DNA of 64,000 nucleotides from Pyrobaculum ferrireducens (GTDB lineage: Archaea; Thermoproteota; Thermoprotei; Thermoproteales; Thermoproteaceae): positions 2,394,391-2,458,390 of the forward strand of contig NC_016645.1 in the NCBI RefSeq assembly GCF_000234805.1, given 5' to 3'. The notes under the pieces are model-generated. The model was given only the letters and a program-made list of their open reading frames with translations, was not told the origin of the DNA and made no database searches. The position numbers were made by a program, and so were the translations under genes. Each line of letters starts with the position of its first letter. The first letter of the stretch is position 1. Below are positions 49,769 through 58,427 of the stretch, in pieces.

Positions 49769-51337
49769 ATGGATTATCTGAGTACTAACTCAATACTAAA
49801 TGGACCTTTTATATTCACGTATACTTCTCATCATATGGTCAGGTCCCCCGGGAAGTCTCTCCCCCCATACATAGATACCTATAGTAATAAAAACTGGCGC
49901 TGCGATATAAGAAGAATACTTATTCCTCATGAATTGTTGGAAACGGAGATAGATGGTTTGAGCTGTCAGGATTATCCGTATGAATGTGCGAAAAAAGTGG
50001 TCTCAGAGCTGAGGAGGTCCGGAGGTAAGGCATACTACTTGAAGGAGAATCCAAAAATAATTCTTACCACAGACAGCGGTAGTGGCACGTATAATCTACA
50101 ACCCTTACCTGCAAAATCCTTAGATGAAGTACTGGGATTTGAATTTAAACCAAGGTTCCTATTTGGAAATAATGTAGTGACAGAGACTCCATACGGTATT
50201 CTTAAAAACCCGCCTTACGAGTGCCAGGATGAACAGGATGAATTACCCCGATTGGTTATTTTATATGAAGATAAAAGGGCGGCTGTAGCCGTCAAGAAAC
50301 TCCTATATGAAGTTAAGCCGTTTACTGAGTTATTTAGACGACCTGATATGACTAGACTGAGTGATGTAGAAAAGAAGGGAAGTTTAGAAGATGTGCTTAA
50401 AGGTGGGACTGTTACGTTATTAATTGCAAGTGAAAATTATTTGAAAAGTCATTTAGATGTGATTACTCAGCTTAAGTTAGAAAGCTTTAAGCTGGGAAGG
50501 GGACGTTCTTCATTACAGATTATCAATTCAACTAGATTTGCAAATTTAACTTATGAACAGCGGCGGTTTTATTTCCCAGCGAATCTTGTAGCAGCTCTGT
50601 ATTTTAAGGCCGGGTGCATTCCATATGGGGTAGTAGTGCCGAATTGTGCGTTATGTTATGAGTTGCAGGCGAGTCTATACGTGGGGGTTGCATTAGCGAG
50701 GGGGCCTAATGGTTATTACAAAGGTGTCGCTATTTTGATGGAAGGGCTTGGCTCAGTGGTGAACTATGTTGATACTGATGAGGTTCTAAAAGGTGGCAGT
50801 ATGGAATTCGGAGAAGACGAAGCGGAGAAATTCAGTAGTAAAATAGTGGAGATGATTATGGAATACAAAGAGAAGTTTGGGGAAACTCCGGAAAATTTGT
50901 ATGTTGTGAGGAGTAGAGCGTTTGCCAGTATAGAGGCTGATGAAATTAGGAAGAAAGTTGAACGGGGAATTGAAAAGAAGTTGAGTTTAATTGAACGCTT
51001 CATGTGGAAGAAGTTAAAAAGGAAGACTATTGTCTTTATGTCGCCTTATAAAACAAAGTATAATATCGGGGGCAATAGAGCAATACATGTAAAAAGTCTT
51101 TCTGATTACTCGAATCTTTGGTTAATTCAGCCGCCTAGTTTTAATCATGCTATAAGAATTTCATACAATAGCGGAAATATAGACAGGAGACTTCCGGTAT
51201 TAGCATATTTGTATTTAAGATGGCTTGATTTTACCAGCCTTATAATGAAGGGGCGTTCAACTATTGCGCCAGTTACATACGCTAAAAGATATCTAAAGTG
51301 GTTAACTTTACAAGACAAAATAAAGTTATGGAATTAA
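49769..51337 (+). CDS. MID-PIWI prokaryotic Argonaute homologue, predicted catalytically inactive
   Basis: The frame encodes 522 residues, or 500 if translation starts at ATG 49835 as the TATA box at 49804-49813 suggests. Residues 124-170 (FEFKPRFLFG, PYGILKNPPYEC, LVILYEDKR) match the entry to a MID domain. NLVAALYFKAGCIPYGVVV (272-290), LYVGVALAR (303-311), GVAILMEGLG (319-328), PENLYVVRSRAF (374-385) and STIAPVTYAKRYLKW (497-511) follow the PIWI order of strands. The expected catalytic Asp of VGxD is Ala308 and that of RDG is Ser382, so slicing is unlikely. No PAZ domain fits in the 120-residue N-terminus. Inactive short Argonautes guide DNA or RNA recognition and signal to a partner. The gene is far more AT-rich than its neighbours, suggesting transfer. 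Confidence 0.72.
   Translation: MDYLSTNSILNGPFIFTYTSHHMVRSPGKSLPPYIDTYSNKNWRCDIRRILIPHELLETEIDGLSCQDYPYECAKKVVSELRRSGGKAYYLKENPKIILTTDSGSGTYNLQPLPAKSLDEVLGFEFKPRFLFGNNVVTETPYGILKNPPYECQDEQDELPRLVILYEDKRAAVAVKKLLYEVKPFTELFRRPDMTRLSDVEKKGSLEDVLKGGTVTLLIASENYLKSHLDVITQLKLESFKLGRGRSSLQIINSTRFANLTYEQRRFYFPANLVAALYFKAGCIPYGVVVPNCALCYELQASLYVGVALARGPNGYYKGVAILMEGLGSVVNYVDTDEVLKGGSMEFGEDEAEKFSSKIVEMIMEYKEKFGETPENLYVVRSRAFASIEADEIRKKVERGIEKKLSLIERFMWKKLKRKTIVFMSPYKTKYNIGGNRAIHVKSLSDYSNLWLIQPPSFNHAIRISYNSGNIDRRLPVLAYLYLRWLDFTSLIMKGRSTIAPVTYAKRYLKWLTLQDKIKLWN
49804..49813 (+). promoter_or_regulatory. TATA-like box inside the 5' end of the PIWI frame
   Basis: CTTTTATATT is centred about 26 nt before ATG 49835, the first Met after it in the PIWI frame. 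It indicates that the true protein starts at MVRSPGKSLPPY. Confidence 0.45.
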
Positions 51338-51921
51338 ATTTAGCAAATATTTTTTCATGGTTAAAGTTAATTTCAGAATTAGTTAATAATTATCTTAAAT
51401 CTATAGTTGATAGTTACTTAAAATCTATAGAGGTCGAGTGTTGCATTGATGCTCTGAAGTACCTACGCCGCGGTCGTCGTGTTAAAAGGACACCGAAGCT
51501 ACAAGATGAGTGTTACAATTTTTATAAGGAACTAAAGAGACACTTTCGACAGAATGCATTAAATGTTTATTTTAGCTATGTGATTCTAAATGAGTTAAAG
51601 TTATTAGCTAAATTTTTAAGTAAAGATATTGAGATTGATTTTAGAAATTTACTCAAAAACTTTGTTAATAAGTATAAAATAAAATGTGGGCTCTGTCAGA
51701 GGTGTATATCTCCACAGGACTGCTTTCTAAAGTATATAGCATGTGAAGATCGGTGTACGAGGTGGAGAATTAAGAGGAAACTTATGCGTATTGCCGCGAG
51801 GAGTAACCCTATGTCGGACTACGCTCGTTATTTCCTTAGAGGTTATGTTACGGATGATATCGAATCAAAACTACGTCAGCTTTACTCTAAGTCCAGTTTC
51901 TCATGTACTGCACCACGATAA
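51328..51921 (+). CDS. Cys-rich helical partner of the PIWI protein, unknown family
   Basis: ATG 51328 overlaps the PIWI stop by 10 nt, so the two genes are translationally coupled. The 197-residue product is Leu/Lys/Ile-rich and mostly helical, beginning MELNLANIFSWLKLISELVN, an amphipathic rather than clear transmembrane stretch. A possible metal-binding knot lies at about residues 118-141 (KCGLCQRC, PQDCFLKYIACEDRC), followed by a basic patch (TRWRIKRKLMRIAARS). I do not recognise it, and I see no APAZ, TIR, SIR2 or nuclease motif. By position it should be the effector or the missing N-terminal half of the Argonaute. AT-rich like its partner. Confidence 0.6.
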   Translation: MELNLANIFSWLKLISELVNNYLKSIVDSYLKSIEVECCIDALKYLRRGRRVKRTPKLQDECYNFYKELKRHFRQNALNVYFSYVILNELKLLAKFLSKDIEIDFRNLLKNFVNKYKIKCGLCQRCISPQDCFLKYIACEDRCTRWRIKRKLMRIAARSNPMSDYARYFLRGYVTDDIESKLRQLYSKSSFSCTAPR

Positions 51922-51927
51922 TTTAAG

Positions 51928-52120
51928 TTAATTATGAACTATATGCGTCCCGGCTCTGTTTAGGGCTGTGTCTATGGGGCTGTCGGCGAGTCCGCTTGCG
52001 ATGATTACATCTGCGCCGGTTTTTGCGGCCATAGGTCTAGGCCTAGGCGCTGGGGAGGTTTTGTATCATCTTGGTGGGGTCTTTGCAGACTACTGACCCG
52101 CCTATTTTTACGACTATCAT
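51928..52120 (-). pseudogene. lysZ: lysZ remnant with internal deletion
   Basis: The start survives: ATG 52120 reads [20 protein letters not shown], the N-terminus of LysZ ([LysW]-aminoadipate/glutamate kinase), and then hits TAG at 52043. In another frame, 52032-51928 reads [20 protein letters not shown] and continues [10 protein letters not shown] to a TAA, which is the end of the same kinase. About 200 codons between are missing, with the junction around the palindromic CTAGGCCTAG (52035-52044). The gene cannot make an active kinase. The last base of the frame is only 6 nt from the stop of the PIWI partner gene. Confidence 0.75.
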
Positions 52121-52266
52121 ATGGGGGCGATGGGGATTGTCCTCAGCACCTCGTCCTCTGGGAAGCCCATAGCGATGTTGATTGCCTGGCTGGCGGCGCC
52201 TCCCACTAGGTTGTCTATGGCGGCGAAGGCGACTGCCCAGCCGAGGCGGGGCAGTTCGATTTCTGA
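52117..52266 (-). pseudogene. lysY: lysY remnant (3' end only)
   Basis: In one minus frame the DNA reads IELPRLGWAVAFAAIDNLVG and then GAASQAINIAMGFPEDEVLR to TIPIAPI and TGA, the conserved C-terminus of LysY/ArgC ([LysW]-aminoadipyl/glutamyl phosphate reductase). Upstream the frame is closed by TGA at 52267-52269. The TGA at 52117-52119 overlaps the lysZ ATG, which preserves the original operon coupling. Only about 48 codons remain of some 350. DNA further upstream (52270-52440) shows no reading frame I can connect. Confidence 0.75.
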
Positions 52267-52426
52267 TCACGTCGTCGGCGTGAGCTCGGTGCCTGTATGT
52301 GTTTCAGCTATCTTTAGTTTCCGGCGGCCCCCCTTTCAACAGAGCTACATAGGGCCTACTTTCAACTGCTAGACGGCAGGCAGTATGAAGATGTGGGCAT
52401 GGAGGGTGTAGATGTAGTAGTTCACT

Positions 52427-52437
52427 GTTAATAATTT
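52427..52437 (+). promoter_or_regulatory. TATA box for the Cys-rich nuclease-like gene
   Basis: GTTAATAATTT is centred about 23-25 nt before the ATG at 52455. Confidence 0.5.
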
Positions 52438-52454
52438 GTTAAACTCTACGCCTC

Positions 52455-53285
52455 ATGTCTAGAGGCAGGTATGTATACGAAGACCCCTCGATTGGAGCCA
52501 TTATTTCAGCCCTCTCTGTCGTTGACTTTGTCCTAGGGGAGAGGCACTATGATAGTTATTTAAAACAGACCGTTAAGGGTCCTGGGGATTTATCCCTAGT
52601 TTACAAAAACGCCAAGGTGGTACTAATCGAATTTAAAGCACCAGAGCTAGCCACATTCAGCTGGAGGTACGAGATTGGACAAGTAAAGAGCGGCCTCTTT
52701 AACGCATATTTAGAACTAGCCAAAAAGGAACTACTATTCCTAGGTCTAATACACGGCTTAGTCGATCCATACAATGCTCCGCCTGGCGGCATGGCGACGT
52801 TTCGCCACGCACCTCTAACCACGGCCTTTGTGCTTCCAAACGACGCCGAACGTTGTCTGACAATGCTAAGTCGAATGAACACTACGACGTTACATGTAAT
52901 ACATGTGCATGGGAACTGTTTATGGAACTGTTTCCCGTTTCCAAATCTTAAACGTAAGACATATCGGCGGGATTTTGTAAGGTGCTATTCGGCCATTTGT
53001 AAGCTAAGCAGGTATTGTAATAGCTACTGCGTCAGCGAATTACACACTGGAGAGTGCAGATTTATGCACGTTGTAGATTTGGCAACTCTGCTTTGTTGTC
53101 TAGAAGAGTGTAAATTTGGCATAAGGGGTGAGGAAGCTATGCCGTTGTTAAAAAAAGTTATACCTGATTTGCAAAAAGCTCTACACGAGATCACCCACTT
53201 ATATGTCCTGACATCTACCCTAGAGCTTATTCCACTACGCGACTTCTTAAATCTGTTAGAGGGGGGTACACCCCCCGAGACCTAG
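52455..53285 (+). CDS. PD-(D/E)XK-like, Cys-rich protein
   Basis: The 276-residue product has GPGDLSLVYKNAKVVLIEFKAPE at residues 43-63 (given as GDLSLV and VVLIEFKAPE), in which Asp45, Glu59 and Lys61 fit a D-x13-ExK nuclease core, with an upstream Glu in the first helix. Residues about 155-215 are rich in Cys (GNCLWNCF, RCYSAICKLSRYCNSYC, GECRFM, LCCLEECKF), which may hold a metal or Fe-S cluster, a feature also seen in Cas4/AddB nucleases, though the order here differs. It sits between the lys remnants and the large ATPase, close to the PIWI cassette, and could be part of the same defence module. Nuclease activity is inference. Confidence 0.55.
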   Translation: MSRGRYVYEDPSIGAIISALSVVDFVLGERHYDSYLKQTVKGPGDLSLVYKNAKVVLIEFKAPELATFSWRYEIGQVKSGLFNAYLELAKKELLFLGLIHGLVDPYNAPPGGMATFRHAPLTTAFVLPNDAERCLTMLSRMNTTTLHVIHVHGNCLWNCFPFPNLKRKTYRRDFVRCYSAICKLSRYCNSYCVSELHTGECRFMHVVDLATLLCCLEECKFGIRGEEAMPLLKKVIPDLQKALHEITHLYVLTSTLELIPLRDFLNLLEGGTPPET

Positions 53286-53321
53286 GCCCCAGGTCGCCGG
53301 CTTAGAGATGTGCAGATACCT

Positions 53322-53408
53322 CCTTTTTGCCTTATAGAAAAGGCAGAGGTTTCGAGAATGTGTAAGTAAACTAACTCCACTTAAAAGGGGCTTCTAAACA
53401 CTTACACG
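53322..53408 (+). repeat. hairpin and inverted repeat after the nuclease-like gene
   Basis: TGCCTT (53328-53333) pairs with AAGGCA (53341-53346) across a 7-nt loop, extended by wobble pairs, and could act as a transcript end. A separate perfect 8-bp inverted repeat, GTGTAAGT (53361-53368) and ACTTACAC (53401-53408), lies upstream of the large ATPase gene and could be an operator or a scar of integration. Confidence 0.35.
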
Positions 53409-53484
53409 ACACATATACAGAGCTGGAGGTGATCTCTATAACCTTGTTGAGACGAGAGATAAATATAAACCCGCCCACTTCACC

Positions 53485-56400
53485 GTGGCTGTTTCCGGCG
53501 ACTTATTCGCGCCGTATAACAAGAAGAGGGCTGAGCGGTACCCCTTCCCCGCCGTGGTGGTTGGGCCGCCTCGTAGCGGCAAGACGTTCTTCATAAAAAA
53601 CTACGGGGTGGAGGCCGGGGAGAAGATCGCCGTTGAGAAGGGCGAACTCGCCGAGGAGGTGGGTGGGGGGCTGTATAGGCTTGTCTACTACATCCCGTGG
53701 GACGACGCGGAGAGGTACGCCAGCGGCGACGCAAAGAGGGCCGTCGAGCTCATCCAACAGCATTTTACGCCGGTGGAGTACCTCGGCGTTGGGTACATGC
53801 CGCCTGGCTTCGTGGCTGAGGTGTTGAAGAGGCTGGGGGAGGGCGGCGAGGAGGCCGCCGTGAAGTACCTAGAAGAGCAAAGAGAGGCCTATGAAGAGCT
53901 TTCCTCGTTGCTGGCGCCAGATGTCTGGGATAGGGTGCGTGAAGTGTTTAAGAGAATTGGCTACGTCGCCTTGAGGGAGGCGGTGTTGTTTTTGACGGAG
54001 GTATTGCATATCGCCGACGCCTTCCTCGTTTCTAAATTTCTAGATCTGGTGGCGGCTGTCATAAAGGTCTTCGGCAAAAACTGGATTACGCAGTGGATAG
54101 AACAGAGGGAGAGGTGGAGAGGCCTACACGAGGACCTGCGGAAGGTGCTGGCGTGGAGAGCCGCCGCGAAGCTGGGAAGAAGCGGAGAGGAGGTGGAGGG
54201 GGCGCTGGACGCGCTCTACAGAATTGACGCCGCGAGGCTGGAGGAGGTGGTGGAGAAAATCGAGGAGAAGCTGGCCGAGCTGGAGGCCAGAGTCTCAGTG
54301 CTTGAGGATAAGCTCATGCCTGACAGCGCCGTCTACACTGAGGCGGAGGAGCTGGGCGTGGAGCGCAGAGGCGGAGTCTTGTACGTAATGGGCGCGCCGT
54401 ATGTAGACCCGGCGCGGTACGGCCTAACACAGGCAGTGGAGGAGGTTAAGCAGAAGGTGTGGGAGGTTGTGGAGAGGGGCGGCGTCTTGGCCATAGTCGG
54501 CCCAAGAGGAGTCGGCAAGTCCACGCTGGCCAGAGCCGTGCTGGCGGAGGTTCTGAGGAGGGCGGCGGTTAGAGGCGTGATAAACGTGAATAGGCTGAAG
54601 CTTGACGATCTGCCAGAGGTGGTGGAGAGGGGAGGCCGTAGCTACCTCTTGTTCTACGACCCCACGACCCCTAGGTTCTACGAGTTGGGTGGTCTTGAAA
54701 AACCTCTGGAAAGGCCAAAGCCCGAGGTCGTCGGCGTAGTGGCTGACCTCGTCAACTTGACGCACCGCGGGAAGCAACCCAGAGCATCCGTTGTTTTGGT
54801 ACTGCCGACGGACGTCTACAACGCGCTGGGCGAGGAGGTGAAGAGGCGCATAACCCCCGTCGCTCCTGATTTGAAGAGCGTTGAGTTCCTCGCCGAGGTA
54901 ATAAGGCGGTACTCCGGCTGTCGGCTAGAGGGAGAGAGGTTGAAGATCCTGGCCGGGGAGATTGCGAAATTCGACGAGGGCTACACCCTAATCGCCAGGC
55001 TTGTCGGCGAGGAGTTGAGAGAGCGGGGTTGCCAGCTAGAAAAAGTAGAGGAGATGGTGAGGGCGGCCGGGGGGAAGGCCCTTAGGTTTATGCTCATCTA
55101 CGTCAACGAGGTGTTGGGGGTTGAGCGGGGTGGCGGCGAGGTGAGGTGTCCCGACTTGGCTTGGGTGTTCTCCGCCGTGCTGGCGGCTAGGGCGGATTTC
55201 GCCGAGGCCGCGAGGCCAGGCGACGTCCTCATCCCGCCCACTCTGCTGGAGAAGTGGGTTGAGTGGAGATGGGCCAGGTACAACGGCGTCCGCTGCGGCA
55301 GAGAGGCCCTGCCTCAGAGAGTATTCAGCTGGCTCTCGATAAGACACCACTACCTTGTGGAATCCGCGTTAAAACTAGCCGCCCAAGCCAAGTCAAGCCG
55401 CGCCTCAGAAGAGTTGCAGATGTTGAAAGAGTTAGACGTATGGGCCAAATACGGCGTCGAGAGTTACAACATCCAAGACTTCTTGATGGAACACGGCCCT
55501 GATTTAGAACGGGAGTGGGAGGGGGCGGTCTGTCTAGAGAAATTTGCGTTAATGCTCGGCGCCGCCATCGCTGACCAACCATACAAGCCATTTGCCGAGG
55601 CGGCAAAAGAGGCTGGAGAGGACCTAGGCAACACCGTCGAGAGGATAGGGAGGGGGTGTGTGATAGACGAATACCTGCTGGCCGACGGCGAGCTAACGCC
55701 ATTCACCCGCGTACTTTTACAAGAGATGGCTTTGAGGGGCGTGATGCCTAAGTCCTTCGCAAGCCAACACGGCAGAGCGCTAGAGGAGGCGGAAAAACTG
55801 GTAAAGACATGGAAAGAGAGAAGCTACACCAAGGTATGGGAGTTTCTCTACTGCCTTGGCCTGGCCGTAGTGGTGGCGAGGGCGGAGGCGCTGGATAGAG
55901 AGGTAGCCGTAAAGGCGCTATATGCGGCTCTGCCAGCTGTGCGACACACGGTGTTTCCAGTCGCTGTCGGTGATATTTTCGATGTGCTTTCGCCGCTGAG
56001 GGAATACGCGCCGGATTGGTGGGCCGCCGTGCTTGACGTCGCGGCTACGCCGGCGGTGATTGAGCGGCCGGAACTGGCCAGGCGTATTTTTGAAGAGATT
56101 GAGTGGGTCAAGGAGCGGGTGGTGGAGGACTGGGCCAAGGCGCTACTCGCTAGCGCCTACGCTGCAGTGCCTACAAAATATGCCGATGCCGAGAAGTTGC
56201 GTAGAGATGTCTGTCGACTCTTGGGAGGTATTCAAGACCAGGATTTGAGAACTATAGCGGAGATCTACACGCTCTGGCGGCTCGCCGAGAAAGGGCTCCC
56301 GCCTTGCGGTGTCGATCTGTGCACGGAAGGGGGAAGAGAGGGCTGTGTAGAGTCTCTGGAGAAGGCGTTTGAAAAGAAGGTAGGCGAGCTGTTGTCAAAA

Positions 56401-57570
56401 CTGGCGGAGCTGAGGAAAAGAGCTGAGGAAGGCGAACTAAGCCCAGAACTGGAGAAGTACCTAGCCGCTAAATCCCCAGTAAGGCAGCAGGTGGTGCTTC
56501 AGATGATGCTCTCTGAAGCTAAGGCTAAGCTGTACTCCAGCCTCGCGGTGGCCAAGCTGGACGCCGGCAAGCCAGAGGAGGCGGCGGAATATTTCGCCAA
56601 AGCCGCTGAGCTCAACAAAGAGCTGGGGATTTGGGAAAACTACCTAACCGACTCTTCTCGAGCCGCTAGAGCCCGCGTGTTGAGGGTCGGCGACCTCAGC
56701 GAGGCTGTTGAAGCTGGCGAGGTTTTTGAAAAACTGTGGAAAGAGGCAGAGGAGCACATAAAGCCGACGGCCGTCATGTTGTATATTGCCTCTTTCAAGC
56801 TGGCTGAGTATCTTGTCTACCTGACGGCTTCCGGCAGAATGGAGAAGGCGGCTGAGGTGTTGAGAGAACGCGGCTGGTTGTTGAGATATGAAAACTACGT
56901 ACACGTCGCCACCCTATACATATTGAGGTTACTCGGCGCGGAGGTGGAGGCGCCAGACGCCGAGGAGCTGTTAAAGGCGCTAGGGGGCCGCATAGATCCG
57001 CTTCTCAAGCCAGCTCTGGCGGCTTCGCTGGGCGTTCCGCCAGAGTCCCTAGATATAGCGTTGCTGTGTGCTGAAGCCGCCGAAGTGCAACCCGAATTAT
57101 TCAAACGCGTAATTGAAGAGAGGAACTCATCTCAACTGGGGGAATACGCTTGGCCTTTCGCATTTTGTCTCGGCGTCTACAAAGCCGTTATGGGCGACAT
57201 GGAGGCGTCTGACCTATTACGTATACATGTAAAAAAGTTGTATGGGGAAGAGTCAGAGCTCCTTTCTGTGCTGGACCGTCTTGACGCCGGGGGGCTGGTG
57301 CAGGTTTTGGCGCCTATAGACTCACATGGCCAGCTAATTCTTCTGCTTAGGGCCCTCGACGAGGCTAGAGGCGCCAGGGGCCCAGAGCGGGAGAGGTATC
57401 TCGAGCTGGCGCGGGCGCATGCTCTGGTAGGCAAATACGTCTATAAGGGGACTATATTCAAAACGCTTTTTGGCGAGGCGGCCAAGGCGGTTGAGAAGTG
57501 CGGCGGCCAAGTGGAAAACTGCGAGGACTTAAAGCTGGCGCTACTCAAACTCTATTACCTCCACATCTAG
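53485..57570 (+). CDS. very large two-P-loop ATPase, STAND-like
   Basis: The 1361-residue protein has one P-loop near the N-terminus (VVVGPPRSGKTFF, residues 24-36) and a second at 336-348 (AIVGPRGVGKSTLARAVLAE). A coiled-coil stretch (EEVVEKIEEKLAELEARVSVLEDKL in parts) separates them. The second P-loop is followed by YLLFYDPTT and VVLVLPTD, consistent with a STAND/AAA NTPase. The C-terminal 700 residues are all-helical with TPR-like pieces (EEAAEYFAKAAELNKELG, RMEKAAEVLRERGWLLRYENYV in parts). The protein may be a sensor-effector of a defence or mobile-element type. The GTG start lies about 20 nt behind GATAAATATAAA (53456-53467). Specific function unknown. Confidence 0.65.
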   Translation: MAVSGDLFAPYNKKRAERYPFPAVVVGPPRSGKTFFIKNYGVEAGEKIAVEKGELAEEVGGGLYRLVYYIPWDDAERYASGDAKRAVELIQQHFTPVEYLGVGYMPPGFVAEVLKRLGEGGEEAAVKYLEEQREAYEELSSLLAPDVWDRVREVFKRIGYVALREAVLFLTEVLHIADAFLVSKFLDLVAAVIKVFGKNWITQWIEQRERWRGLHEDLRKVLAWRAAAKLGRSGEEVEGALDALYRIDAARLEEVVEKIEEKLAELEARVSVLEDKLMPDSAVYTEAEELGVERRGGVLYVMGAPYVDPARYGLTQAVEEVKQKVWEVVERGGVLAIVGPRGVGKSTLARAVLAEVLRRAAVRGVINVNRLKLDDLPEVVERGGRSYLLFYDPTTPRFYELGGLEKPLERPKPEVVGVVADLVNLTHRGKQPRASVVLVLPTDVYNALGEEVKRRITPVAPDLKSVEFLAEVIRRYSGCRLEGERLKILAGEIAKFDEGYTLIARLVGEELRERGCQLEKVEEMVRAAGGKALRFMLIYVNEVLGVERGGGEVRCPDLAWVFSAVLAARADFAEAARPGDVLIPPTLLEKWVEWRWARYNGVRCGREALPQRVFSWLSIRHHYLVESALKLAAQAKSSRASEELQMLKELDVWAKYGVESYNIQDFLMEHGPDLEREWEGAVCLEKFALMLGAAIADQPYKPFAEAAKEAGEDLGNTVERIGRGCVIDEYLLADGELTPFTRVLLQEMALRGVMPKSFASQHGRALEEAEKLVKTWKERSYTKVWEFLYCLGLAVVVARAEALDREVAVKALYAALPAVRHTVFPVAVGDIFDVLSPLREYAPDWWAAVLDVAATPAVIERPELARRIFEEIEWVKERVVEDWAKALLASAYAAVPTKYADAEKLRRDVCRLLGGIQDQDLRTIAEIYTLWRLAEKGLPPCGVDLCTEGGREGCVESLEKAFEKKVGELLSKLAELRKRAEEGELSPELEKYLAAKSPVRQQVVLQMMLSEAKAKLYSSLAVAKLDAGKPEEAAEYFAKAAELNKELGIWENYLTDSSRAARARVLRVGDLSEAVEAGEVFEKLWKEAEEHIKPTAVMLYIASFKLAEYLVYLTASGRMEKAAEVLRERGWLLRYENYVHVATLYILRLLGAEVEAPDAEELLKALGGRIDPLLKPALAASLGVPPESLDIALLCAEAAEVQPELFKRVIEERNSSQLGEYAWPFAFCLGVYKAVMGDMEASDLLRIHVKKLYGEESELLSVLDRLDAGGLVQVLAPIDSHGQLILLLRALDEARGARGPERERYLELARAHALVGKYVYKGTIFKTLFGEAAKAVEKCGGQVENCEDLKLALLKLYYLHI

Positions 57571-57638
57571 CCAACCGAGGCAGGCGAACATCCGGTAGAG
57601 GCGTCTTTAGACTACGCCGCCGCGGCCAATAAGCCTCG

Positions 57639-58106
57639 TTAGATAGGAGTCCCGACGAGCCACTTCTCCAGCCCTCTGGCCATCCTGATGGCCCTCTCGG
57701 CGGCTCTTTTCAGCTTGTTGTGCATCTCCCTTCTGTCTTCTCTGCAGGCCTCGGCTAGCTTCTCGGCCAGAGACAGCAGAGCCGACGGGCTGTAGCCGGC
57801 GGCGTAGGTGCCGAGTGGGGTTCTGATCAACAGACGGCCCCTCCTCACCTCGGCCTCCACGGGGCACCGGTCCATTGTCAAGTCTATCATCTCGATGGCC
57901 CTCTTCGTGAGGCGGTAGACGACGCGCGTCCTCCCGCCCCTCTCAACCCTCGTCCACTTGAGGAGGCGCAGCTCCTGGGCCTTCTCCAGCACGTAGACGG
58001 CCTCCCCGCCGAATGCTCTGTGCAGATCCCAGTAGGACACCTCGCCGCCAAGCCCAACCGCGATCTTCACCGCACGCCAAACCTTGCCAAGCTCCACAAA
58101 ATCCAC
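57639..58106 (-). CDS. winged-helix DNA-binding protein
   Basis: The 155-residue product has a winged helix-turn-helix at residues about 10-75 (GGEVSYWDLHRAFGGEAVYVL in parts, LLKWTRVERGGRTRVVYRLTKRAIEMI in parts). A short beta segment (EVRRGRLLIRTPLGTYAAGYS) and a basic C-terminal helix pair follow. It is convergent with the large ATPase and could regulate the element. No ligand-binding domain is evident. Confidence 0.65.
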   Translation of the reverse strand: MDFVELGKVWRAVKIAVGLGGEVSYWDLHRAFGGEAVYVLEKAQELRLLKWTRVERGGRTRVVYRLTKRAIEMIDLTMDRCPVEAEVRRGRLLIRTPLGTYAAGYSPSALLSLAEKLAEACREDRREMHNKLKRAAERAIRMARGLEKWLVGTPI

Positions 58107-58427
58107 TCCCTACGTAAAGCACCGCCAAAAATCCACACCATGTATTTTACACAGATGCGGGGGTAGACCGAAACTAAAAAACACGCCTTCCCTTTATAAA
58201 CAACTGAATGCGAGAAGGTAAAGCATGTCGCCGGGGAGAGAGTAGGCTGAAAGTAATTAACTGGCAGATAAGATTAATTTCAGTTTTTAAATAAATCCAA
58301 GACCCGGCTCCGCAGGCGTCTAGAAATAAATCTTTTCTTTAAAGCTTTATACTAAATTGTATTATTCTAATTTAATGATGTTTTAAATTGAAACTTTAAG
58401 TTTATATTTTTCAGATTTTATTGTCTT
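58107..58427. other. 321-base AT-rich intergenic region
   Basis: The stretch separates divergent genes and grows strikingly AT-rich at 58250-58420. Apart from the TATA box at 58399-58409 I see no gene. AATGATG at 58374-58380 resembles a C box but lacks a matching D box. AT-richness of this kind between divergent genes of an element could mark an origin or regulatory region, which is only a possibility. Confidence 0.35.
58399..58409 (+). promoter_or_regulatory. TATA box for the 226-residue gene
   Basis: AGTTTATATTT is centred about 24 nt before GTG 58428 and decides that start. Confidence 0.5.

Follow-up and report, generated by a model that had tools for sequence, protein, structure and literature searches.

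STAND sensors that act through nuclease effectors have been described, and the Fe-S nucleases of the Cas4/AddB type within the PD-(D/E)XK superfamily carry one cysteine before their core and three after it. For short pAgo systems, the associated nucleases combine APAZ with DUF4365, SMEK or HNH (PMC10810196). The DNA-transfer loci of Thermoproteales termed Ted commonly carry HerA and MinD/ParA-type ATPases (PMC9905601).

The locus considered here lies in a window of 64,000 nt (the whole stretch of DNA that was analysed) from Pyrobaculum ferrireducens and comprises an orphan gene, its upstream neighbour pAgo and a large ATPase (Table 1). As in short pAgo systems, a candidate nuclease gene adjoins a pAgo gene; in contrast to them, the linkage between the two is not kept, and neither APAZ nor a nuclease domain was detected at the orphan gene by Pfam, PADLOC or NCBIfam. 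The best reading, to which we assign a probability of roughly 0.5, is that of an accessory gene for a nuclease-like protein, carried as cargo on the margin of a mobile element and defence island.

Table 1. Positions within the window of the orphan gene, its parts and its neighbours
Feature	Position	Strand	Remarks
pAgo (PIWI) gene, upstream neighbour of the orphan gene	49769..51337	+	PADLOC pAgo, E 9.1e-22
207-aa Cys-rich ORF 3' of pAgo, part of the PIWI cassette	51298..51921	+	10 Cys; within the block that G042 retains alongside PIWI
lysZ 3'-end fragment	51941..52030	-	89% to intact lysZ of the same genome
Fragment with lysZ 5' end and lysY/argC 3' end	52051..52251	-	87% to the intact genes
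TATA-like box TTAATAATTT	52428..52437	+	27 nt 5' of the ATG; identical 10-mer in the second copy
Orphan gene, candidate PD-(D/E)XK-like nuclease	52455..53285	+	open frame, 276 aa, ATG start
Codons 1-65, most constrained part	52455..52649	+	dN 0.049, dS 0.460; bootstrap dS<=dN 0/200
D45; E59; K61	52587-52589; 52629-52631; 52635-52637	+	all three identical in both copies
Codons 151-205, fast-evolving, with 7 of the 11 Cys	52905..53069	+	dN 0.555, dS 0.545
Large ATPase, two P-loop-like motifs, TPR-like C-terminus	53485..57570	+	AAA/STAND-type and TPR Pfam matches

The orphan gene and its selection pattern

The open frame is a real, narrowly spread gene. The host genome, a single contig of 2.47 Mb, holds a second, intact copy (G000:C1:260636-261487) that is 68% identical to the one in the window, and in a chance test the frame stayed open in 106 of 20,000 simulations of 198 neutral substitutions. 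Its GC content is 45%, compared to 57% for the window, 58% for the adjoining ATPase gene and 39% for pAgo. Among 45 genomes of the order, the gene occurs in its own genome only, and no relatives beyond it could be confirmed in this set, in profile searches of 398 and 300 genomes of the phylum, or among genome contigs, viral contigs, phages and plasmids. A weak match in G032 was dismissed upon inspection, as was a 273-aa frame in G054, which has only 37 residues in common with the orphan protein and an unrelated N-terminus. The literature covered, including parts of PMC9905601 and PMC4158269, yielded no description of the gene.

Comparison of the two copies gives a dN of 0.223 and a dS of 0.595 for the whole gene, dS exceeding dN in 200 of 200 bootstraps. 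This constraint is distributed unevenly: purifying selection acts on codons 1-65, which include D45, E59 and K61, whereas no constraint could be detected in codons 151-205, and codons 206-276 show a dN of 0.253 and a dS of 0.799. It is the regional contrast in dN/dS that identifies the N-terminal part as constrained and the middle as nearly unconstrained. D45, E59 and K61 had been singled out in the preliminary description as a plausible nuclease core, and such a core remains plausible: they are identical in both copies and lie within the stretch under purifying selection. Because the non-coding stretch 5' of the gene is also about 90% alike between the copies, the bare identity of the three residues proves little, and the dN/dS contrast is the better evidence; the constraint across codons 1-65 extends beyond them, and conservation has little power as only two sequences exist.

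The preliminary description had also counted at least 10 cysteines in the C-terminal half, and a recount agrees: 10 of the 11 cysteines of the protein (134, 155, 159, 177, 182, 188, 192, 201, 214, 215 and 219) are located there. Each copy has 11 cysteines, of which six occupy common columns (134, 182, 201, 214, 215 and 219); within codons 151-205, C182 and C201 are the only ones common to both. The cysteine-rich part is real but mostly unconserved. Upstream of the gene, the TATA-like box suggests a leaderless promoter of its own, a role assigned from sequence.

Relation to PD-(D/E)XK nucleases

Direct searches with the orphan protein returned no family from Pfam, NCBIfam or PADLOC at E values up to 1, 1 and 0.1, respectively. 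The best PHROG match was one 69-position family of unknown function (E 0.21), and the solved structures in the PDB provided no nuclease match, only an SPT5 chain (E 1.1 or 0.088). A significant sequence or profile match to any PD-(D/E)XK member family was not found. AlphaFold modelling from two-row alignments gave no usable structure, with a pLDDT of 36.3 at full length and of 33.5 for residues 1-167. HSDR_N_2 of Pfam, sought as a template, matched at E <= 0.001 in one of 45 genomes of the order, none being above the cut-off. The D...(D/E)-x-K feature of the superfamily is present in the form of D45, E59 and K61 and conserved, albeit in two sequences only.

Remote comparisons led to two nuclease-like families. 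When 300 genomes were searched with an N-terminal profile, the strongest remote match in frame was protein P0001 of G015, with an E value of 0.019 per genome, which across 300 genomes is not significant alone. The segment KGPGDLSLVYKNAKVVLIEFK of the orphan protein aligns with it in register for D, E and K, such that GPGD45...E59FK61 falls on RPD...ECK. Five other long in-frame candidates examined alongside look like chance matches. Over the same region, P0001 matches PDB chain 4ic1_A (E 0.00048; table entry "uncharacterized"), which we take to be a Cas4-family nuclease. P0002, a relative of P0001 in the genome of the orphan gene (C1:1380039-1381247), reaches an E value of 0.96 against the same chain and lies beside an AAA_5 ATPase; the arrangement would be McrBC-like, and the name McrC is taken from this neighbour. 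GPGD...IEFK of the orphan protein aligns with GRPD...IECK and GRPD...VEAK of these McrC-like proteins, a likeness over ~40 residues that is not significant; the orphan protein is shorter, its C-terminal half is different and, unlike P0002, it is not adjoined by an AAA_5 ATPase. The second family is the N-terminal domain of a type IIG enzyme (L037:10990-14706; PADLOC REase_MTase_IIG, 1251.8 bits), where VLIEFKAP of the orphan protein compares with VIVEYKAP and VIIEYKAP. The enzyme is a 1238-aa methyltransferase fusion, whereas the orphan is a single small protein, and a comparison of the type IIG N-terminus with the PDB found no nuclease.

Local hhalign comparison scored 29.3 against the McrC-like profile (maximum of 60 column shuffles, 27.2) and 26.4 against the type IIG N-terminus (maximum of 60 column shuffles, 20.4). 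Of the 26 type IIG hits, 18 were read; eight minus-strand matches, among them L079, were left out, so that the profile comprised 10 rows. The hhalign probabilities are low (11-16%), and both templates were picked for motif likeness. On balance, the probability of a PD-(D/E)XK nuclease is put at roughly one half to two thirds, and the protein is not classed among the tested members of the superfamily. Cas4/AddB Fe-S nucleases resemble it in the ExK motif and in cysteines after the core; their cysteine pattern differs in that the orphan protein has none before residue 134. What stands of the nuclease core in the preliminary description is the conservation of its residues and their alignment with nuclease-like families; a direct family or structure match was not obtained.

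Alternatively, the protein may not be a nuclease but a fast-evolving, cysteine-rich archaeal protein with another fold (e.g., a regulator or inhibitor), in which the D...ExK spacing arose by chance. We regard this as doubtful, if the most plausible of the alternatives. The scarce family or structure support argues for it, as does the constraint on codons 1-65, which is not restricted to the three residues, and a looser motif pattern was matched by 3.1% of shuffles and not by the real protein. On the other hand, the strict D...ExK pattern, written after seeing the sequence, occurred in 0.06% of 20,000 shuffles, and the in-register alignment extends to two distinct nuclease-like families; taken by itself, the motif carries less weight than the selection data. 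In the preferred reading as an accessory nuclease-like protein, the N-terminal half probably forms a PD-(D/E)XK core that would cut DNA by means of D45, E59, K61 and a divalent metal, and the fast-evolving, cysteine-rich C-terminal half could bind a target or a partner.

The large ATPase and its possible mobile context

The orphan gene directly precedes the large ATPase gene in both copies, and the block 52053-58236 is colinear with the second-copy locus at 79%. Together with the AAA/STAND-type and TPR matches of the ATPase, this might point to a functional pair, in which the STAND-like ATPase with its TPR C-terminus would sense an invader and switch on the nuclease-like protein. Such a pair appears unlikely. 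The order holds six copies of the ATPase at 70% identity or above, and the orphan gene is found in front of two of them, rather than being fused to the ATPase or always beside it as expected for a STAND sensor and its effector; the other four lack it. The two genes are 199 nt apart, and each of the five loci compared retains a TATA-like sequence 5' of the ATPase whether or not the orphan gene is present, which suggests that the two genes are separately transcribed. Moreover, joint duplication alone accounts for the linkage.

Other upstream neighbours of the ATPase are a BrxL/type IIG pair (G035 C1) and, in the genome of the orphan gene (C1:2315748), a 323-aa protein preceded by NurA/HerA. The latter protein (L039:10142-11113) was rejected as a relative of the orphan gene (best BLASTP E 0.11) and gave no family match at E below 0.03; by eye, its EIDAYV...LAEFS may be a nuclease-like or decayed core. 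ATPase relatives, some of them weak, occur in 29 of the 45 genomes of the order, and the large two-P-loop ATPase recurs beside different defence systems and conjugation-like genes, which makes it a lead for a mobile-element hub. To the right of the ATPase, ParA-like genes follow, and the right side of the second-copy locus encodes a HerA/VirB4-like ATPase (weak matches). Given the HerA and MinD/ParA-type ATPases of Ted loci, the ATPase block may belong to a mobile element related to Ted.

Cassette exchange at lysZ remnants

Both copies of the orphan gene are found in the same order: defence cassette, lysZ fragment, fragment with the lysZ 5' and lysY 3' ends, orphan gene, ATPase. The lys debris that had been noted between the PIWI cassette and the gene is genuine, as judged from its identity to the intact genes. 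Intact lysZ and the 3' end of lysY reside elsewhere in the genome (G000:C1:1381370-1382279) and match [LysW]-aminoadipate kinase and ArgC/LysY-type reductase; the two loci with the orphan gene are the only ones to contain a composite fragment of the type at 52051-52251. Remnants of lysZ (with or without lysY) were observed in four loci of three genomes (51941-52251, L036:11485-11803, L038:9932-10233 and L003:8556-8926), where they separate exchangeable defence cassettes from the ATPase and may mark a crossover site.

The cassettes themselves differ. In the window, the left cassette comprises pAgo with DUF1156 and DUF499 proteins; the 207-aa ORF overlaps the end of pAgo, and its cysteines mostly form a tight cluster (C-x2-C-x2-C...). 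The cassette of the second copy comprises HmaA/B/C-like proteins and a protein of 376 aa that carries RNYVAH close to its end and is HEPN-like by eye only. This protein (L003:7393-8523) and a 373-aa one (L036:10328-11449) share an N-terminal hydrophobic stretch and the C-terminal RNYVAH, and both are adjoined by an Hma-like cassette; neither gave a convincing family match. The Hma-like methylase of the second copy (L003:1819-4343) is split into ORFs of 304 and 485 aa and may be inactive, and its counterpart at L036:4750-7275 is one 841-aa frame.

Across four loci, every combination of cassette and gene is realized: (i) PIWI with the gene in the window; (ii) the HEPN-like cassette with the gene in the second copy; (iii) PIWI without the gene in G042, where the PIWI cassette (85-88% at the DNA level) is followed by just one lysZ fragment of 314 bp and then the ATPase; and (iv) the HEPN-like cassette without the gene in G035 C4, where the cassette (88% identity across 8.6 kb with that of the second copy) is followed by a 320-bp lysZ fragment and the ATPase. 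Sites empty of the gene were searched for its remains: for 52251-53390, blastn found no trace in four gene-less loci, and tblastn with the gene yielded nothing at E < 0.1 in three of them and, in the fourth (L037), one 29-residue match (E 0.087) far from the ATPase. In (iii) and (iv), the junctions from lysZ to the ATPase almost coincide (lysZ positions 2684 and 2673, respectively). The four combinations and the near-identical junction indicate that cassette and gene have been reassorted by recombination, the lysZ fragment lying between the two; either the gene entered one lineage by insertion, or the other lineage lost it along with part of lysZ.

A more far-reaching scenario is improbable: a new, very narrowly spread nuclease family, the cysteine-rich half of which evolves fast against changing targets, would act as an exchangeable effector beside a STAND-like ATPase of an archaeal mobile element, and the lysZ remnant would be the homology site for swapping whole cassettes (PIWI/Hma-like or Hma/HEPN-like). 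Least credible of all is membership of the orphan gene in a PIWI (pAgo) defence unit, which the preliminary description had considered from the adjacency in the window, where nothing but lys debris intervenes over some 530 bp: the second copy adjoins the Hma-like and HEPN-like cassette and has no PIWI, G042 retains both pAgo (80%) and the ATPase but no remains of the gene, the other pAgo relative, that of G035, is at a different site in a genome devoid of the gene, all four cassette/gene combinations occur, and in the order the gene (1 of 45 genomes) and pAgo (3 of 45) are not kept together. In the preferred reading as accessory cargo, the gene would have its own promoter, would travel between the lysZ remnant and the ATPase gene on the left margin of an integrated element, and recombines independently of the PIWI cassette; a role in defence is conceivable.

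The exchange of cassettes at a pseudogene remnant is a more interesting result than the gene itself. If the protein cuts DNA, it would represent a family of nucleases absent from present libraries. The four loci, with every combination of cassette and gene split at a pseudogene fragment, are evidence that defence islands in these archaea reshuffle at such remnants, and they serve as a warning that being neighbours within a defence island is no evidence of working together.
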